Assembly: GCA_006226595.1 (NCBI GenBank)
Contig: SBGP01000102.1
Span: forward strand, 1 to 52,765
DNA: 52,765 nt
Reading direction: 5' to 3'
Origin: Deltaproteobacteria bacterium
GTDB lineage: Bacteria; Myxococcota_A; UBA796; GCA-2862545
In this document: positions 14,354-24,745 of the stretch, one piece after another
How the letters are laid out: the number at the start of each line of letters is the position of its first letter
How positions within the stretch are numbered: position 1 is the stretch's first letter
Position numbers and translations under genes: made by a program
The notes under the pieces: model-generated
The model's database searches: none
Seen by the model: the letters and a program-made list of their open reading frames with translations, nothing else
Told to the model about the DNA's origin: nothing

Positions 14354-14758
14354 ATGCACCTGCTCGCTCGCATTCATACGCCGCTGCGCTGGTTCACCGC
14401 CGCGACCTTCGTACTCGTCGGGGTGCTGCACTTCACCCACGCCGACACCTTCGTGCGCATGATGCCGCCGTACCTGCCGTGGCACCTCGAGCTCGTGTGG
14501 CTGTCCGGCGTGTTCGAGATCCTCGGCGGGGTCGGGCTGCTCGTGCCGTTCTCGCGCCGCTTCGCAACCTTCGGGCTGCTCGCGCTCCTCGTGGCGGTGT
14601 TCCCGGCGAACGTGCACATGGCGATGAACGAGGTGTACCTGGACGGGCTGCCGCAGAGCCCGGTCGCGCTGTGGCTGCGGCTGCCGTATCAGCTCGTGAT
14701 CGCGCTGCAGGTGTGGTTCGTGGGGCTGTGGCAGCCGCCGACCTCAGGTGAGGGCTAG
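14354..14758 (+). CDS. DoxX-like membrane protein
   Basis: 134 residues with four hydrophobic segments. The opening RWFTAATFVLVGVLHFTHAD (14-33) followed by MMPPYLPWHLELVWLSGVFE is typical of the DoxX-like membrane protein family often annotated beside oxidoreductases. Its reaction, if any, is unknown. The 98-bp region upstream is divergent from the ABC exporter. The last 15 bases overlap the end of the convergent bpX6-like gene. Confidence 0.8.
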   Translation: MHLLARIHTPLRWFTAATFVLVGVLHFTHADTFVRMMPPYLPWHLELVWLSGVFEILGGVGLLVPFSRRFATFGLLALLVAVFPANVHMAMNEVYLDGLPQSPVALWLRLPYQLVIALQVWFVGLWQPPTSGEG

Positions 14759-17455
14759 CCGCGTCCACACGGCGCCATCGCGAAGGTCGAGCACGGCGAG
14801 CCGCCCGTCCTCGTCGAAGCTGCACAGGAACGGAGGCTGGAGCCGCACCGTCCCGGTGTTCGCGAGTACGGCGCGCAACGTGGGCCGCGCGTCGAGGGAG
14901 AGCAGGTAGGCGTCGTCGTCGCGGTCGCCGTGCACGAACAGCCAGCCCTCGCGCAGTCGCCCGGTCGGCGAGGCATCGGCGTCGGCACGACCGATCACCG
15001 TCGTCAGCGGGTCGCCGCTCACCCGCGGCATGTGCGTGCGCCCGGCGCGCACCTGCGCGTAGGCCGCCGCTGAGGACACGGTGAGCACGAGCTCCTCGGC
15101 CTCGCTGACGGTGGCCTCGAACGAGATCCCGCAGGGCCAGAGCCCGGTGTGTTCGGGGACGAGCTCGCGGCGTCGCAGGCGCAGCCCGGGCAGCTGGTAG
15201 GTGAACACCTCTTGTCCGTCGAAGAACGACATCCACTGCGCTTCGCGCTCGATGCGGTGCACGCGCTGGTCGACCGGTACGGACCACACGGCGCGCGGCT
15301 CGGGTGCGTGCAGGTCGAGGGCCAGCACCCGGTCCCGCTCGGCCACGAACCACAGCGAACCGTCGCTGTCCGGTGCCCAGCGGGAGAGCATCAGCCGGCC
15401 CCAGAGGCGCCACTCGCGGCTGCCTTCTTCCATGCGCCACAGCCGCCGAGGCGCGTCGCCCCGGGAGACCTCGATACCGATCACCGGTCCACGGCCGTCG
15501 GGGCAGACGAGGTCGGAAATGGGCTCGTCGAACCACGCGAGGGTGTGCCCGCGGCGGGTGCACAGGCGTGCGCCCTGGTCGCCGTGGGCTGCGAGCAGGG
15601 TGGCGTCGGCGCGGCGGAAGGCGTCGAGCACGGGGACACCGCCAGCGGGTGCGTGGAGGTCGATGGCGCGACGCGGGCCATGGGCGAGTTCCGGCCCAGG
15701 GGAGGGAAGCGTCGGCAGGTCCGCCGCGAGGATCGGGTCCTCGGTGCGCTTCACCAGGCCACTCAGCGGGGTGCCCACCCGCGGGTTGTCGCGGACCTCG
15801 CGGAGCAGGGTGCGGGCCGCCGCGCGAGCGAGTGCGGCCACGGGCTCGGCGGCTGCGGCGTGCAGGCGCTCGGCGACGGCGAGGCGCGCATCCAGCGAGT
15901 CCTCGCCGGGTGTGGTGAGCAGGCTGCGCAGCGCCGGCACGTCCTCGGGCTGGTTGCCCGGGTCCCGGTCGAGCCGCAGCACGCGGAGCGCCGCGGCGTC
16001 CGGGCCTCCGGCGGCGATGCCCATCGCGAGCACCCGGGTGGCGAGTCGCTCCGGATCCTGCATGCCATCCACCACCGCCAGCGCTGCCTCGAAGCGGCCG
16101 GCGCGTACGAGCCGCTGGACGTACACCTGGCGGAGGACGTCGGCGTCCTCCGGGCGGTCGGCGAGCTTCGCGATGACCGCGGCGAAGACGTCGTGGCGTG
16201 CGGCGAGCGCCACGGCGCGCTCGATGTCGCCGGCGAGGAACCACAGGCGCACGCACAGCTCGGGATCGAGCTCCTTGGCCTCGGCGATCTTCGCGGCGAG
16301 CTCGAACAGCTCGTGCTTCTCGAGCAGGGCGATGGCTTCGAGCGGCTTCTCGAGCAGCTCGGCGAGGACGAAGGCCGCTTCCTCGTAGCGCTCGGCCCGC
16401 TCGAGTCGCTGGACGGCGCTGGTGTAGGTCTGCTGGAGCAGCTCGTACAGGCCACTCCCGAGGGGCAGCGCACCCCCGGAGCCGCCGCGTCGTCCACCGA
16501 TGGTGAGGTCGCCGCGCGCTCCGGGCAGGCCGAAGTCCCAGGTGCTCCCCGGGCCGCCCTGACCGCCGAGGGGAATCGCGCGACGCAGCGCCTCGCCGAA
16601 GTCGCCGTCCTCGAAGCGCTTGAGCAGATCCTCGAAGTGCTTGGCGTACGCCCCCTGGATCATTCGGTGCATGCGCAGGCGCGCAAGCAGGTTGCCGAGC
16701 AGGCCGCGGCCGCTGGGCGCGGGAGCGGTGGTGTTGACGTCCACGCCGTCGCGGGGTGCCGGAGCACTGCCGCGCAGCAGACGCGACAGCCACTCGCGCA
16801 GGCCGAGGGCCCCGGCAAGGCCGTCCCCCAGCGTTGTCGCGGCGGACATCGCGGTGCCAGGCGTGTTGGCCGCCTGTTCGGCGCGGGCCAGCGCGCGCTC
16901 GATCCACGAAGGCTCCCGGGGGGCGAGCGCCGCCTCTCTCGCCTCGCGGGCGGCGAGGGCCTCGACCAGCGCCTTGACGTCCGGATCCTCGGGCTGGACC
17001 CCGGTGAACGCGTGGCGGGCGAGGGTCGGCGTCTCGATCACGGCGGCGGGCGCGGGGGGTGGGGCGAGGTCGGAGAGGGTGGGGCTGGCGAAGGCGGAGA
17101 GGTCGAGCCAGGTCGAGGGGTCCACCAGGGCGTCGACCTGCGTCGCCGCGATGGCGCCGGCCTCGATGCGCCACAGCGCGGGGGTTCCCTCCACTCGCTC
17201 GTCCTCGTCGAGAGGAGGCTCGGTGAGGGCGCCCTCCACGCGAACCAGCGGCGTACCCACGGCGGTCTCGGCCCGCATCTCGACGGGCTGGGGCAGGTGG
17301 AGCAGCCACGCATCCCCGGTTCGCTCGAGGCGACAGCCCGGTGTCCACAGCGCGAGCACGCGGCGCCGCGCCTCGGTCTCGCCGATCAACGCGGGAAACA
17401 GGAGCAGGGCCTCCGCCGCGACCCGACCCCGCCGAACCCAGTGACGGGGCCTCAC
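14744..17455 (-). CDS. Large bpX6-like protein of a MoxR-vWA-beta-propeller ternary system
   Basis: 903 residues. It has an N-terminal beta domain (about 1-100; MVRPRHWVRRGRVAAEALLLF opens it), a disordered Ala/Pro linker, a long helical TPR-like stretch (about 350-560; units such as RYEEAAFVLAELLEKPLEA), then a C-terminal beta-propeller-like half with blades such as LAWFDEPISDLVCPDGRG and SDGSLWFVAERDRVLALDL. This matches the general plan of the large bpX proteins described as partners of MoxR and vWA proteins in conflict-type systems; the exact subfamily (bpX6) is my recollection. The GTG start overlaps the upstream stop by GTGA (another GTG one codon earlier is possible). Cytoplasmic, no signal. 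Confidence 0.72.
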   Translation of the reverse strand: MRPRHWVRRGRVAAEALLLFPALIGETEARRRVLALWTPGCRLERTGDAWLLHLPQPVEMRAETAVGTPLVRVEGALTEPPLDEDERVEGTPALWRIEAGAIAATQVDALVDPSTWLDLSAFASPTLSDLAPPPAPAAVIETPTLARHAFTGVQPEDPDVKALVEALAAREAREAALAPREPSWIERALARAEQAANTPGTAMSAATTLGDGLAGALGLREWLSRLLRGSAPAPRDGVDVNTTAPAPSGRGLLGNLLARLRMHRMIQGAYAKHFEDLLKRFEDGDFGEALRRAIPLGGQGGPGSTWDFGLPGARGDLTIGGRRGGSGGALPLGSGLYELLQQTYTSAVQRLERAERYEEAAFVLAELLEKPLEAIALLEKHELFELAAKIAEAKELDPELCVRLWFLAGDIERAVALAARHDVFAAVIAKLADRPEDADVLRQVYVQRLVRAGRFEAALAVVDGMQDPERLATRVLAMGIAAGGPDAAALRVLRLDRDPGNQPEDVPALRSLLTTPGEDSLDARLAVAERLHAAAAEPVAALARAAARTLLREVRDNPRVGTPLSGLVKRTEDPILAADLPTLPSPGPELAHGPRRAIDLHAPAGGVPVLDAFRRADATLLAAHGDQGARLCTRRGHTLAWFDEPISDLVCPDGRGPVIGIEVSRGDAPRRLWRMEEGSREWRLWGRLMLSRWAPDSDGSLWFVAERDRVLALDLHAPEPRAVWSVPVDQRVHRIEREAQWMSFFDGQEVFTYQLPGLRLRRRELVPEHTGLWPCGISFEATVSEAEELVLTVSSAAAYAQVRAGRTHMPRVSGDPLTTVIGRADADASPTGRLREGWLFVHGDRDDDAYLLSLDARPTLRAVLANTGTVRLQPPFLCSFDEDGRLAVLDLRDGAVWTRLALT

Positions 17456-19212
17456 CACGGAGACCTCACCGGCATGGTGCGGTCCGTTCCCGCGCCCTTG
17501 GCTTCGAGAGGCACGATCCGGACGGCGCCAGGCTCGACGAGCAGGGCGACCTCGGGGCTTGCGGGCAACAGGATCGCGGCCAGGGGCTCCACGCCGATGG
17601 GGATCTCGTGCTGGCCGCGGCGATGGCGGACCCACAGCGAGCGCCCACGCAGCGACACCAGGCTCGGCTCCGTGTCGAACCCGGGGAGCAACACCACGCC
17701 GAGCACCCCGCCCGGATCGGGGATCTCGAAGGGCTCGCCGCCTTCGCCGGTCCACATGCCGATTCGCTGGATCCGCCACGAGGTGCGTCCGGCCTCGTGA
17801 TAGCGCCGCGCCAGCGCGCTCGCCGGGGTACCGGCGAAGGCCTTGGTCTTGTCCGCGCCAAGCCAGCCGCCGCGTCCGAACAGCGTGTCCAGCGCGTCGA
17901 GCTTGCCGACCTCGAGGGTGCGCCCCTCGCCGCCCGTGCCGTGGATGATGCCCGTGTCCGCATCCAGCCAGCGGGGCCCGTGGGGGCCCCAGGCCATCGC
18001 GTCGATCCTGTGGGGCAGGCGCGAGAGCACGCCGTCGCGCACGAACGCGGTCCACCCGTGGCCGCCTGGCGTGCAGAAGGTGACGCGCGGGTGGTTCGAC
18101 TCCGCGTCCACGTACAGGGGCACCGGCGGCGCCTCGGGATCGGGGCGCAGCAGCTCGGGCTCGTCGACGTGCAGCTCGCGGGGAAGGCCATTCCAGCGAG
18201 GGCTGCGCGAGAAGCCATGCAGCTGCAGCTTGTCGCCGCGCAGGGCCAGTCCGCATAGCTGCTTCTGGTGCAGACCCACGGCGACCAGGACCTGGTCCCT
18301 GGGCACCCACAGCGCCTTGGGGCGCTTGCTGCGTCCGGACACCGGCACGTTCACCACGCCGTTGTACCCAACGAGCACGTGCTGTCCGGCATGGTTCGCG
18401 AGGAAGATCCGCGGGTCGAGGCCCTCCTTCCGCTCGGGTGCGGGCGGTGTGGCCTGGATGGCGGCGAGCGGGTCGCGGAGTAGCAGCGCCGCCATCGCCC
18501 GGTCGGCGAGCGGCAGCTGCACGGGGGGCGCATGGGTGGTGGGCGTCGCAGCCGTGAGCGCATCGCCTTCGTCGCGCTCCTCGACGACGAGAGGCCTCAG
18601 GCCCAGCTCGCTCGCGAGGGACTCGCAGCCAGGCGCACCCACCAGCCACCCGTCGTCGACGTCTCGCAGGAGCTCGCCCCATGCCGTACTCGGGGGCTCG
18701 AGCGTGCGGCGGCGGCACAGGCGGTCCAGGTCCCGCGGCAGGGAGACCGGACGCAGGCTCTCCGGGTCGTGAACCAGGCCCCACTCGAGGACCAGGCCCT
18801 CGTCTGCGGCCCGGCGTGCGAGCAGTGCGAGCAGCGCGATGTGTACGAGGCGGCACGGTCCGATCTGTTCGGGGCCCGCATCGAAGAGCACGACGCTGCG
18901 ACGGGCGCCGGACGGCTCGCGACGCGCGGGAGCGAGGAACAGGTGCTCGCCCATGGCCGCTCGTCGGGTGAACTCGTCGGGAAGCTCGCTGGCGAGCAGC
19001 CACTCGGAGAGCAGCAGGCGGTCGTAGGGCCCGCGTCGATCGATGCCCTCGTACCCGTCCAGCGGGCCGTTCCCGCGGCGAACACGCGCGCGCATCGGGC
19101 CGACGAACGCGGCGAGTCGCGGCATCCACGGAGCGAGGGCCGTCGCCGTGTGCGGGGCAATGCCCACAAGCTCTTCGGCCCACGGCTGCAGGGCGCGCGG
19201 AAGCTCGCTCAC
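17452..19212 (-). CDS. Degenerate vWA / beta-propeller (bpX) fusion protein
   Basis: 586 residues from GTG 19212, which overlaps the bpX0 stop by GTGA. The N-terminal half (about 60-240) has a vWA-like Rossmann core: YDRLLLSEWLL, then the strand SVVLFDAGPEQ (106-116) and a helix RLVHIALLALLARRA. The MIDAS motif DxSxS is replaced by DAGPE, so metal-dependent ligand binding is probably lost. The C-terminal part (about 250-586) is a run of short beta repeats ending in Trp/Leu motifs, consistent with a propeller. It should bridge the MoxR ATPase and the large bpX protein. The frame extends upstream to 19410 but overlaps bpX0. Confidence 0.75.
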   Translation of the reverse strand: MSELPRALQPWAEELVGIAPHTATALAPWMPRLAAFVGPMRARVRRGNGPLDGYEGIDRRGPYDRLLLSEWLLASELPDEFTRRAAMGEHLFLAPARREPSGARRSVVLFDAGPEQIGPCRLVHIALLALLARRAADEGLVLEWGLVHDPESLRPVSLPRDLDRLCRRRTLEPPSTAWGELLRDVDDGWLVGAPGCESLASELGLRPLVVEERDEGDALTAATPTTHAPPVQLPLADRAMAALLLRDPLAAIQATPPAPERKEGLDPRIFLANHAGQHVLVGYNGVVNVPVSGRSKRPKALWVPRDQVLVAVGLHQKQLCGLALRGDKLQLHGFSRSPRWNGLPRELHVDEPELLRPDPEAPPVPLYVDAESNHPRVTFCTPGGHGWTAFVRDGVLSRLPHRIDAMAWGPHGPRWLDADTGIIHGTGGEGRTLEVGKLDALDTLFGRGGWLGADKTKAFAGTPASALARRYHEAGRTSWRIQRIGMWTGEGGEPFEIPDPGGVLGVVLLPGFDTEPSLVSLRGRSLWVRHRRGQHEIPIGVEPLAAILLPASPEVALLVEPGAVRIVPLEAKGAGTDRTMPVRSPW

Positions 19213-19598
19213 CACGCCTCCAGCCGCTCGCGCGACACCGGGCCGAGGGCGCCGAGGTCGAGGAGCAGGGGAGGGAACAGGCTCACCGCGGTCGGGCGCC
19301 CGAGTGCCGACTGGAGCAGGCTCGGATGGACCGGCGGCGTGTGCGTCGTGGGAAGCAGCAGGCGCGGAGCCTGCGGATCGCGCCCCAGGTAGCGAATGCC
19401 GTCGACCCACGGCAGGTCCTCGCCGCGCACGAGGAGCAGGTGGTCAGCGACGGCGACGCGCAGGCCGCGAAGGTCCTCGCGCGCCAGCAGGCGACGGGCG
19501 AGGCGATGCGCCGCCTCTCCGGTGGCCACGGCGGCCAGCGGCGCGAGGGGAGCGTCGCGGACCAGCCACCGCGACGGGTCCAGGCTGCCCACGCTCAC
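19209..19598 (-). CDS. bpX0-like small protein of the MoxR-vWA-bpX system
   Basis: 129 residues with GTG start at 19598 overlapping the MoxR stop, and its own stop overlapping the next start; both overlaps are GTGA. Segments such as RVAVADHLLLVRGED and DGIRYLGRDPQAPRLLLPT, then a C-terminal PPLLLDLG, resemble the bpX0 domain found only in these cassettes. No catalytic residues are evident. Its invariable place between MoxR and the vWA protein suggests an adaptor. Function is inferred from gene order and family memory. Confidence 0.7.
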   Translation of the reverse strand: MSVGSLDPSRWLVRDAPLAPLAAVATGEAAHRLARRLLAREDLRGLRVAVADHLLLVRGEDLPWVDGIRYLGRDPQAPRLLLPTTHTPPVHPSLLQSALGRPTAVSLFPPLLLDLGALGPVSRERLEAW

Positions 19599-20707
19599 GA
19601 GGGGTTCACCGCCTCGGCGATGCGACCGCGGACCTCGCCCAGCGCGGGAGGCAGGTGTTCGGGCGCGAAGCCGGCGTCGATCTCGCGGAGGATGCCCTCG
19701 AGACGCAGCCTCCAGCCGAGTGCATCCTCACCGGGTCCTCGCTCGAGCAGGCTGGCGCCCGACTCCGCGAGGCGCACGGCGCGGGCGGCGGGTCCGAGCG
19801 AGGCCTCCTCGGCGGCGGCGACGAGGGCGGAGGACTGGCTGTGTTCGAGCTGATCGCGCAGGACGTCGCGAGCCAGCGCCTGGGCGGCGGCGGTCGGTAG
19901 CGCGTAGATCAGTGGCCACAGATCGGCCTCGGTGGGGACTTCGCGACCGGCGAGGGCGGCGGCGGCGGCCACGAGCTTCTGCGTCTTCACCGCGGTGCGG
20001 TCCGAGAGGGACACGCCGGCGCCGCGCAGGCTGCGAATCGCCCGGGCCAGCGCCGGTCGAACCGGGGCGAGGTCCATGGCGCGCGCGGCGTCGGCGAGCG
20101 CGTCGAGGTCGTCGACGCTGGCCACGGCTTCGAGTCGCGGGGCCAGTCCCCACCCGCCCTCGAGGAGGTCCTCGAGCTGGGGGTCCGGAATCGGCGCGAC
20201 GAAGGTGCGGAGCACGAAGCGGTCGGCGAACGCGGCGAGGCCCTCTTCCTCGGGAAGCGCGTTGGAGGCGCCCACGCAGACGCGCAGAGGCACGCGCACC
20301 GCTGTATGGCCGCGGCGAAACACGCGCTCGTTGAGGACGGCGAGCAGGGTGTTGAGGATGGCTGTCGACCCGAGGAACACCTCGTCGAGGAACGCGATCT
20401 CGGCCTCGGGAAGCATGCCCTCCGTGCGGGTCTCGACGACGCCGTCGCGGAGCTTGCCGAGATCGACGGGGCCGAAGATCTCGCTGGGCTCGGTGAACCG
20501 GCCGAGCAGGTACTCGAAGGTCCGGGCGCCGAGGACCTTGGACGTTCGGCGAATGGCCTCGGACTTCGCGGTACCCGGCGGGCCGATGACGAGCAGGTGC
20601 TCGCGGGCCACGGCGGCGAGCACGACCAGCTCGACCAGGGCCTCGCGGGCGACCAGGCCCTCGCTGGCGGTTCGGATGGCGGCGCGCAGGCGCTCGCTGT
20701 GGCTCAC
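19595..20707 (-). CDS. MoxR/RavA-type AAA+ ATPase
   Basis: 370 residues. Walker A GPPGTAKSE (42-50), Walker B IAFLDE (104-109), sensor 1 GASN (146-149) and an arginine-finger candidate in ADRF (161-164) are all present, so it should be an active hexameric ATPase. The spacing RFTEPSEIFGPVDLGKL is that of the RavA/MoxR branch, which remodels partner complexes with vWA proteins. The C-terminal 180 residues are helical (lid and partner-binding). GTG 20707 is chosen because GGAG lies six bases upstream. It is the first gene of a four-gene operon, with TATGCT at 20738-20733 as a likely -10 box. Confidence 0.9.
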   Translation of the reverse strand: MSHSERLRAAIRTASEGLVAREALVELVVLAAVAREHLLVIGPPGTAKSEAIRRTSKVLGARTFEYLLGRFTEPSEIFGPVDLGKLRDGVVETRTEGMLPEAEIAFLDEVFLGSTAILNTLLAVLNERVFRRGHTAVRVPLRVCVGASNALPEEEGLAAFADRFVLRTFVAPIPDPQLEDLLEGGWGLAPRLEAVASVDDLDALADAARAMDLAPVRPALARAIRSLRGAGVSLSDRTAVKTQKLVAAAAALAGREVPTEADLWPLIYALPTAAAQALARDVLRDQLEHSQSSALVAAAEEASLGPAARAVRLAESGASLLERGPGEDALGWRLRLEGILREIDAGFAPEHLPPALGEVRGRIAEAVNPS

Positions 20708-20848
20708 GGCAACTCCAGGCAGGCGGTAGGCGAGCATAGACCGCGACTCGCACCGATGGGGTCCGGTTTCCGCCCGCGCGGGGTAGCCCCCTGATCGCCT
20801 CCACCATACGACCCATGGCGAGAGGAGCGGCCCCGCCGCGGAGGACAC

Positions 20849-21988: not shown

Positions 21989-24745
21989 ATGCTGTGGTGG
22001 CTCGGAGCAGCGCTGGCTGCGGTGCCGGTGTGTCCGGATGTGTGCGTGCACCCGGCCACCTACGAGTTCAACGTGGCGCCGGTCGAGCAGGCGGTCGCCG
22101 ACGCCGACCACACCTTTCGCGTGCTCGTGTTCGAGGCGGTCGGCTCGTCGAAGGGGACGTGGAGCTCCGGCACCGAGCGCGCCCTCGAAGAGTCGTGGAG
22201 CAGCTGGGACTCGAGCATGGCCATCGATGCCCGCGAGGACGTGCTCATCGTGCTTGCTCTCGACGAGCGCGAGGTGCGGGTCAAGACCGGCTCGACCTGG
22301 GACGCGAAGCTCGGCCTGTGGGGCGATGCGCTGCTGCCGTTCATCGACGCCGAGTTCCTCCCGCGGGCCAAGGCCGGAGACCTCGGCGGCGGGCTCGCGA
22401 GCCTGGTCACGGCCCTCGACGACGAGATCGACCGGCGCCAGGCCGACGAGGCTGCCCAACTATGGCGGCGGACCCAGGTCGAGGGCCTGTCGCTGAGTGG
22501 CGGCGTGATGCAGCCTCCCGGGATCGAGGCCGCGTACCCGAAGGCGGCGGAGACGGGCGCGTGGGTCGCGGTGTTTCCGGAGGCCTCTCCGGGGGTGGTC
22601 GGCGAGAAGTCCGGTACCGAGTTGCTGCTCACCGAGATCGTGAAGCGCCGCAGCCTCCCGGCGGACCGCCGGGTGGTCGTTGCAGGTCTGGACGAGGGAC
22701 TGGTGCTCGTTCGCCAGCCTCCGGCACTCGCCAGGGAGTACGGGCTGTGGGACTTGCGCGCGAACCTCGGCGAGGACCCGGACGCGGCCATCGTCGCGGC
22801 AGTGGCGCGCTCCGAGGCGGCGCTCGCCGAGAAGGTCGCCGAAGCCGAGGAGCGGGAGCGTCGGCGCCAGGAAGAGATCCGGCGAGCTGAACAGCGGGCC
22901 GAGGAGCAGGCGCGTCGCGAGCTGCTCGTGTCGCTGTTCTTCGCGGTCACCTCGGCATTGGCGCTGTTCCTGCTGCTGCTCTTCCTGTGGCGCTCGCGGG
23001 TCGCCCAGGCCCACGAGCGGTACCGGGCGGTGCTCGAGCCACGTCGTGCGGCCCTCGACGAGGCGCGGGCCAACCTCTCGGACCTGCAGATCGACGTCGA
23101 GACGCGTGACCGTCTGGTCGAGCTCAAGCTCAAGGGGCCGGTGACGCTCGCGACGCTCGACAGCGTGGGGGAGCTCGTCGCCGAGCTCCATGCGGGCGTC
23201 GGGGCGCTCGAGGCGCAGGTTCGTGGCGTGACGCGCGACGAGCCGGGTTTCGCGTGGACGCCGAGCGTATGGACGGCGCTCACCGTGCGCCTGCAAGAAG
23301 GGCTCGCCTTCGACACGACCGCCCAGCGTGCCCTGCTCTTCGGCGGGGAAGGCCAGCAGGTCCGCGCGACGCCCGAGGAGGTGATGGCGCGGCTCGAGGA
23401 GAGCTACGCCGATGCTCGCGACGGCTGGCAGCGCATCCTCGATGCCGCCGAAGCGAGCCTGCATCGCTGTCGGGACGACTTCCCCGCGGACGATCTGCAG
23501 CGCATGCTGCGCGAGCTCGCCGAGTCCGAGCTGCCGCAGTCCTGGCTGCGCACACACCCTCTGTTGCCGGAGGCCGAGCGGACCTGGGACCGCCTGGACG
23601 CGATTCGGCGCGCCGACCCGGTGCACTACCTGGACGAGCTCGACGAGGCGATCGGGGAGGACGACGCGCTCGAGCAGGTCGTCGCCGAGCTGCTTGGTGC
23701 TCGGGCCGCCGCGATGCAAGCGCACCAGGATGTACGCGAGGCCGACGTGGCGGGCATCGACAGCGCGTTCACCGATCCGGCGCTCGACCCTCGCCTGCTG
23801 CTCGGAGAGATGGCGGAGCACCAGCGCGGGCTTGACGCGGCACTGGCTTCCGGCGAGGAGCTCGTTGGAGTCCGCGAGCACGCTGCGGCCCTGCTCGAGC
23901 TGGCGGCGCGCGCCATCGAGCTCGCCGATGCGACGCGGGAGGCTCGGAGCCATGGGGCTGAGCGCCTCGCCGCCGCCTCGGCCCTCATCGACGAGCTGTC
24001 GCGGGTCCGCGCCGAACGGGCGCGCACCCTGGGTGAGATGCTCTCCGTGTTCGTGCCCGAGGCGCTGTCGAGCGCGATGGCGGAGCTCGGCGAGGCCGAC
24101 GTCGATGCGCGGGAAGCGCGCGAGGCCTGGGCTTCCGCGGAAGATCTGTGGTCGCGGAGCTGCCACCTCGAGGCCGTGCGGCAGGTCGAGTCCGTGCACG
24201 CAGAGCTCGGGCAGGCGCGTACCGACCTCGAGGAGATGGCGGAGCAGCTGGCCGCGGCGCGAGCGGAGCATGCGCGGGCCGAGGACCTGTGGCGCACCAT
24301 CGACGAGGTCCGGGCCAAGCACCAGGCGCGACTCACGCAGCTCGCCGGGCACGCCTCCGGCATCGACCTCTCGCAGGGCGATACCCTGCTCGCGGGGCTC
24401 CGCGAGCGCTGGGACGAGCGTCCGGCGGACTGGAAGTCGCGGGCCGTGCGCCTCGAGACCGTCGCGCAGGCGTGGGCGACGGCGGTGGGACAGGCCGAGG
24501 AACGGAAGCGGGCTCACGATGCGCGCATCGCCAGAGAACGTGCCGCGCGGCAGCGCGCGCGTCAGAAGTCGTCCAGCTCCTGGAAGTCCTCGTCGAGCTC
24601 ACGCAGCTACTCGTCGAGCCGCTCGCGATCGTCGTCGTACAGCTCGCGCTCCCGACGCAGTGGCTATTCGTCCTCGTCGTCGCGCTCCCGCTCGTCGGGC
24701 CGCAGCTACTCGAGCGGTGGACGCTCGGCCGGGCGCAAGTGGTGA
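21989..24745 (+). CDS. TPM-domain membrane protein with long coiled coil and Ser/Arg-rich tail
   Basis: 918 residues. After a short signal-like segment (1-15) comes a TPM domain (about 25-150; EDVLIVLALDEREVRVKTGSTWDAKL), found in proteins such as TLP18.3/Psb32 linked to membrane-protein maintenance. A charged helix (about 272-310) leads into one membrane segment (312-334). A 500-residue, Ala/Glu-rich coiled-coil region follows, and the last 55 residues are almost only Ser, Arg, Tyr and Gly. Prokaryotic TPM proteins often end in SxSxSGG tails, but this one is unusually long and basic. ATG 21989 follows GCGGAGG; the ATG four bases earlier is out of frame. Confidence 0.82.
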   Translation: MLWWLGAALAAVPVCPDVCVHPATYEFNVAPVEQAVADADHTFRVLVFEAVGSSKGTWSSGTERALEESWSSWDSSMAIDAREDVLIVLALDEREVRVKTGSTWDAKLGLWGDALLPFIDAEFLPRAKAGDLGGGLASLVTALDDEIDRRQADEAAQLWRRTQVEGLSLSGGVMQPPGIEAAYPKAAETGAWVAVFPEASPGVVGEKSGTELLLTEIVKRRSLPADRRVVVAGLDEGLVLVRQPPALAREYGLWDLRANLGEDPDAAIVAAVARSEAALAEKVAEAEERERRRQEEIRRAEQRAEEQARRELLVSLFFAVTSALALFLLLLFLWRSRVAQAHERYRAVLEPRRAALDEARANLSDLQIDVETRDRLVELKLKGPVTLATLDSVGELVAELHAGVGALEAQVRGVTRDEPGFAWTPSVWTALTVRLQEGLAFDTTAQRALLFGGEGQQVRATPEEVMARLEESYADARDGWQRILDAAEASLHRCRDDFPADDLQRMLRELAESELPQSWLRTHPLLPEAERTWDRLDAIRRADPVHYLDELDEAIGEDDALEQVVAELLGARAAAMQAHQDVREADVAGIDSAFTDPALDPRLLLGEMAEHQRGLDAALASGEELVGVREHAAALLELAARAIELADATREARSHGAERLAAASALIDELSRVRAERARTLGEMLSVFVPEALSSAMAELGEADVDAREAREAWASAEDLWSRSCHLEAVRQVESVHAELGQARTDLEEMAEQLAAARAEHARAEDLWRTIDEVRAKHQARLTQLAGHASGIDLSQGDTLLAGLRERWDERPADWKSRAVRLETVAQAWATAVGQAEERKRAHDARIARERAARQRARQKSSSSWKSSSSSRSYSSSRSRSSSYSSRSRRSGYSSSSSRSRSSGRSYSSGGRSAGRKW

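Follow-up and report, generated by a model that had tools for sequence, protein, structure and literature searches.

A four-gene bpMoxR, bpX5, vWA/beta-propeller and bpX6 cassette as a candidate MoxR-type remodelling machine

Here we describe a cassette of four complete genes, in the order bpMoxR, bpX5, vWA/beta-propeller and bpX6, on the minus strand (positions 14744-20707) of a 52,765-nucleotide stretch of deltaproteobacterial DNA, hereafter the window. The cassette is a member of the published MoxR-vWA-beta-propeller ternary systems (Kaur et al. 2020, subsystem 4, PMC7159879), so it is not new in kind. We give roughly even chances to the reading that the operon encodes one co-inherited MoxR/vWA-type AAA+ remodelling machine acting through bpX6. 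This reading draws on gene order across phyla, the correlated divergence of the four proteins, a gradient of constraint among them, the precedent of NorQ/NorD, the MoxR tree and the single copy of the cassette.

Layout of the cassette

The coordinates, reading frames and three GTGA overlaps given by a sequence-only reading of the window were all confirmed on the minus strand. The bpMoxR AAA+ ATPase gene (19595..20707, 370 aa) shares a GTGA stop/start with the bpX5 gene (19209..19598, 129 aa) at 19595..19598, bpX5 shares one with the vWA/beta-propeller gene (17452..19212, 586 aa) at 19209..19212, and this gene in turn overlaps bpX6 (14744..17455, 903 aa) at 17452..17455. Pfam models for bpMoxR (PF20030, 280 bits against a cut-off of 27), bpX5 (PF19921, 74 bits) and bpX6 (PF19922, 83 bits) were matched far above cut-off. 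The second gene, initially read as bpX0, is thus assigned to bpX5, with no match to bpX0, and no Pfam or NCBIfam match was found for the third. The proposed place among the ternary systems is borne out by the bpMoxR with its GXXXTAKS P-loop, a vWA-like component ending in a propeller, and a bpX6 with a variable region, a TPR-like part and a propeller, all shared with subsystem 4 of Kaur et al. (PMC7159879). As in that subsystem, the gene set is minimal, and Pfam, NCBIfam and PADLOC searches gave no conventional effector gene.

When named genomes were scanned using the MoxR alignment, 80 loci were recovered, from Myxococcota, Acidobacteriota, Pseudomonadota, Armatimonadota and others. Wherever the contig was long enough, nearly all of these roughly 80 loci have the order MoxR, bpX5, vWA/propeller, bpX6, and relatives selected by bpX6, a different entry point, carry this set of four wherever the contig allowed. 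Among relatives having both genes of a junction, a 4-bp NTGA overlap is kept in 49/81, 57/84 and 56/81, respectively, and all three overlaps are retained in 21 loci. Overlaps of 4 bp are common in the window (5 of 21 other same-strand neighbour pairs called), but most relatives keep those of the cassette too, so coupling is characteristic of it. It is not strict everywhere: in some loci of Corallococcus, Archangium and Myxococcus, MoxR and bpX5 are separated by one to five other genes, most of them in opposite orientation (L033, L043, L044, L047, L055, L059, L061, L063, L064 and L069). The expectation that coupling fixes the stoichiometry of a single complex holds in part: one functional complex is suggested by co-inheritance, and coupling alone proves neither point.

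Further genes directly follow bpX6 in three Archangium-like bins (L060:15973-18404; L065; L079). The first of them overlaps bpX6 by 4 bp and encodes 353 aa without a Pfam match, and these genes may form an extended operon. In one Acidobacteria bin, a ClpP-type protease gene begins 5 bp 3' of bpX6 (L066:16201-16836).

The ATPase and bpX5

The bpMoxR GTG start is preceded by a ribosome-binding-like GGAG, with translation from an in-frame ATG at 20737 as an alternative. Its P-loop, GPPGTAKS (residues 42-49; 20561..20584, minus strand), is the GXXXTAKS variant described in PMC7159879. The gene had been called an active RavA-type ATPase; the ATPase motifs are intact, and "active" means no more than that. 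The MoxR core aligns to the RavA core over residues 5-175 (E 5e-37), and the score against full-length RavA (NCBIfam NF010054), 144.9 bits, is far under the cut-off of 681. The bpX5 protein, which has one copy in the genome, carries a conserved LPWVDG..YLG motif in the alignment. Profile searches with bpX5 and bpX6 found no solved relative of note.

The vWA/propeller protein

An AlphaFold2 model of the third protein (pLDDT 84) has a predicted helical N-terminus, a Rossmann/vWA-like domain (about residues 93-222) and a propeller (264-584). The propeller matches a WD40-type propeller in fold searches (Z 14.9, rmsd 4.0 over 270), and a WD40 profile matches the protein at 2e-19. These fold searches used whole models and their match lists were filled by propellers, so they bear mainly on the propeller parts and hardly on the vWA-like domain, bpX5 or the N-domain of bpX6. 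In the model the Rossmann-like domain shows the vWA-fold order of elements. A weak profile match to the ViaA-type vWA family (score 23.3, where the highest of 60 column-shuffled decoys reached 20.4) aligns D111 with the metal-site Asp of the MIDAS. The predicted topology and this profile match hint at a vWA identity for the third protein.

The motif D111-A-G113-P-E-Q-I-G118-P-C-R121 (18850..18882, minus strand) stands where DxSxS is expected, and W189 and G192 lie where strand 4 would bear the second Asp. Across 60 sequences D111 is invariant with DxSxS replaced by DxGPxQ, and the strand that should precede the second Asp holds W189, likewise invariant. Judged by alignment, the canonical metal site is absent from the vWA-like domain throughout the sampled clade. 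According to Kaur et al., one or both aspartates are missing from some vWA domains of ternary systems (PMC7159879); throughout the clade sampled here, such loss is the norm. Since the MIDAS of the standard substrate-capture model is degenerate, the capture step must differ, and the vWA binding mode is likely non-MIDAS.

The bpX6 protein

The AlphaFold2 model of bpX6 (pLDDT 80.6) comprises a predicted N-domain, which is conserved, a variable linker of low confidence (residues 121-285; 16601..17095, minus strand), a helical TPR-like solenoid (334-578; 15722..16456) and a beta-propeller (Z 19.2, rmsd 3.4 over 269 in the fold search) with a low-confidence insert (766-835; 14951..15160). The solenoid is among the most conserved regions of the protein. 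In many Pseudomonadota relatives the linker contains a strongly hydrophobic, membrane-type segment, which the window protein and most Myxococcota lack; the best 19-residue hydropathy in the variable region is 0.95 in the window, against at least 2 in most Pseudomonadota relatives. The published "membrane-spanning segment", typical but not defining in subsystem 4, is thus not general.

Inheritance and rates of change

Over 71 loci, the four proteins have distance matrices that correlate with one another at r 0.88-0.95, compared with a shuffled maximum of 0.16. The MoxR tree requires 5 changes of phylum label against a minimum of 4, on a tree with weak support for many inner branches and without phylum labels for rows from the genome search. 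From these comparisons, inheritance looks mainly vertical, with much loss.

Between close species whose MoxR is 90-95% identical, median identity is 73.5% for bpX5, 62.9% for the vWA protein and 59.8% for bpX6. Compared with vWA and bpX6, flanking genes mostly evolve more slowly in Pseudomonas; in Myxococcaceae the difference is less clear. The cassette genes are overall under purifying selection. Median dN/dS in close pairs is 0.06 for the MoxR core, 0.11 for the vWA N-part, 0.20 for the vWA-like domain, 0.41 for the vWA propeller, 0.17 for the bpX6 solenoid and 0.68 for the bpX6 insert, obtained by a simple counting method on called genes, with rough values for short segments. Ratios above 1 occur only in the insert (5/15 pairs) and in the last stretch of the bpX6 propeller (3/15). 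In 11 of 12 close pairs the insert outpaces the remaining propeller, a comparison that is not fully independent, as the insert was picked after the conservation profile had been seen. By these rates MoxR is strongly constrained, and the vWA propeller and, above all, the bpX6 insert change fast. The insert is a candidate recognition surface, and recognition of a fast-changing partner is possible.

Distribution and surroundings

The source genome has one bpX6 copy. Searches with bpX6 were positive in 11 of 94 genomes of relatives and, with never more than one copy per positive genome, in 19 of 299 genomes from the Pseudomonas group and 60 of 96 from the Myxococcus family group. The latter group may include incomplete bins; there, bpX6 is present in 55 of the 67 genomes that reach 9 Mb and in 5 of the 29 below that size.

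The genes around the cassette are ordinary and do not form an island. A semialdehyde dehydrogenase gene lies upstream in divergent orientation; a convergent DoxX-like gene follows downstream, and beyond it an ABC transporter and a DEAD-box helicase. The plus-strand DoxX-like gene ends inside the 3' end of bpX6, a convergent stop overlap at 14744-14758. Beside the semialdehyde dehydrogenase gene is a 918-aa open frame (21989-24745) with no Pfam match at E 0.001.

Among 148 neighbour proteins, PADLOC gave few hits, mostly generic, a count that has no random baseline, and for the cassette proteins themselves it gave nothing beyond weak ATPase hits. A tblastn search with bpX6 returned no plasmid match. 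Phage MoxR hits were distant and covered at most 39% of the query among the matches listed, and the single viral contig hit was 34% identical and came without a partner gene. No neighbour family was prominent enough across phyla to mark a recurrent fifth or cargo gene. A 2024 study ties related VMAP ternary systems to diversity-generating retroelements; no reverse transcriptase family is among the neighbour families listed. Elsewhere in the source genome, contig C4 carries a separate MoxR gene (bpMoxR domain, 699 aa) and a vWA gene (VWA_2/CoxE-like, 544 aa) at L030:9097-12827, which overlap by 4 bp as a RavA-ViaA-like pair.

Comparison with known systems

Relative to subsystem 4 of Kaur et al., this clade has bpX5 as a constant fourth gene, and its propellers match complete WD40-type propellers, not ones of about four blades. 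The fastest change falls both in the linker of bpX6 and in the insert of its propeller. The nearest solved precedent is NorQ/NorD, which likewise has a MoxR ring that remodels a vWA partner (PMC13036017, PMC9976466); the ring is proposed to turn this partner and to stretch or remodel its linker (PMC13036017). NorD differs: it has no propellers, it has a MIDAS site and a finger in the pore, and its client (cNOR) is known. RavA-ViaA shares the MoxR core, but the cassette MoxR falls far below the RavA cut-off and its partners are different.

A proposed machine and its alternatives

In the machine we propose, MoxR would form an ATP-driven ring, and the vWA-like/propeller protein would be its co-chaperone, with the conserved N-terminal half docking on the ring and the propeller binding a partner. 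By analogy with NorQ/NorD, MoxR may act via this N-terminal half. The bpX6 protein would be the partner that the ring remodels or presents, and it would carry the output, while bpX5 may be a small adaptor. Binding and reshaping of the target would fall to the bpX6 solenoid together with both propellers. We infer complex formation, the direction of action and output through bpX6 from the comparisons above. The open-access literature searched yielded no interaction, ATPase or phenotype data for the cassette and no experimental study of the beta-propeller type.

Kaur et al. proposed from genomes that the ternary systems as a family serve in conflict or self-recognition (PMC7159879). For this cassette, the propellers would sense an invader or non-self partner, and MoxR and the vWA component would set a threshold, freeing an activity carried by bpX6 that either restricts spread or is lethal to the cell. 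We consider this a serious possibility that falls somewhat short of an even bet. The patchy presence in the Pseudomonas group, the Myxococcus family group and the relatives fits such a role, and the fast evolution of the vWA propeller and the bpX6 insert is what recognition would predict. However, the cassette is present once per positive genome, the MoxR tree tracks phyla, and neither a plasmid bpX6 match nor a close phage or viral relative was found. The few defence models among the neighbours, counted with no baseline, and the failure of the searches to return a known effector domain, PADLOC giving weak ATPase hits alone, also speak against it. A single-copy, phylum-bound cassette outside a defence-gene neighbourhood is thus unlike mobile defence.

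The RavA-like core, single copy and vertical signal would suit a housekeeping assembly chaperone like NorQD or RavA-ViaA, which would mature one complex of some lineages only, its patchiness reflecting loss of the client. The greater frequency in large Myxococcus family group genomes is also consistent with this account, which we hold tentatively and below even odds. No client gene was found to recur beside the cassette across phyla, and it is not obvious why a conserved client should make both propellers evolve fast. It is very improbable that the four genes are merely adjacent, with the vWA/propeller and bpX6 proteins working without MoxR. Some Corallococcus and Archangium loci have insertions of other genes behind MoxR, which would permit this, but the order is kept across phyla and all four proteins diverge in correlation. 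Because inheritance is mostly vertical and the cassette single-copy, we lean slightly towards a lineage-restricted remodelling function over mobile defence.

A further reading, which we think unlikely, is an old, vertically inherited four-part recognition machine rather than mobile defence. Here a constant motor would drive two propeller proteins, the hypervariable bpX6 insert would read a fast-changing partner (e.g. a kin or self marker in social bacteria), and vWA binding would be metal-independent.

These results narrow the focus for testing to a four-gene unit that includes bpX5, with a constant motor and one hypervariable surface (bpX6 residues 766-835). The cassette also occurs in tractable Myxococcus and Pseudomonas, so conflict and assembly roles are directly separable.
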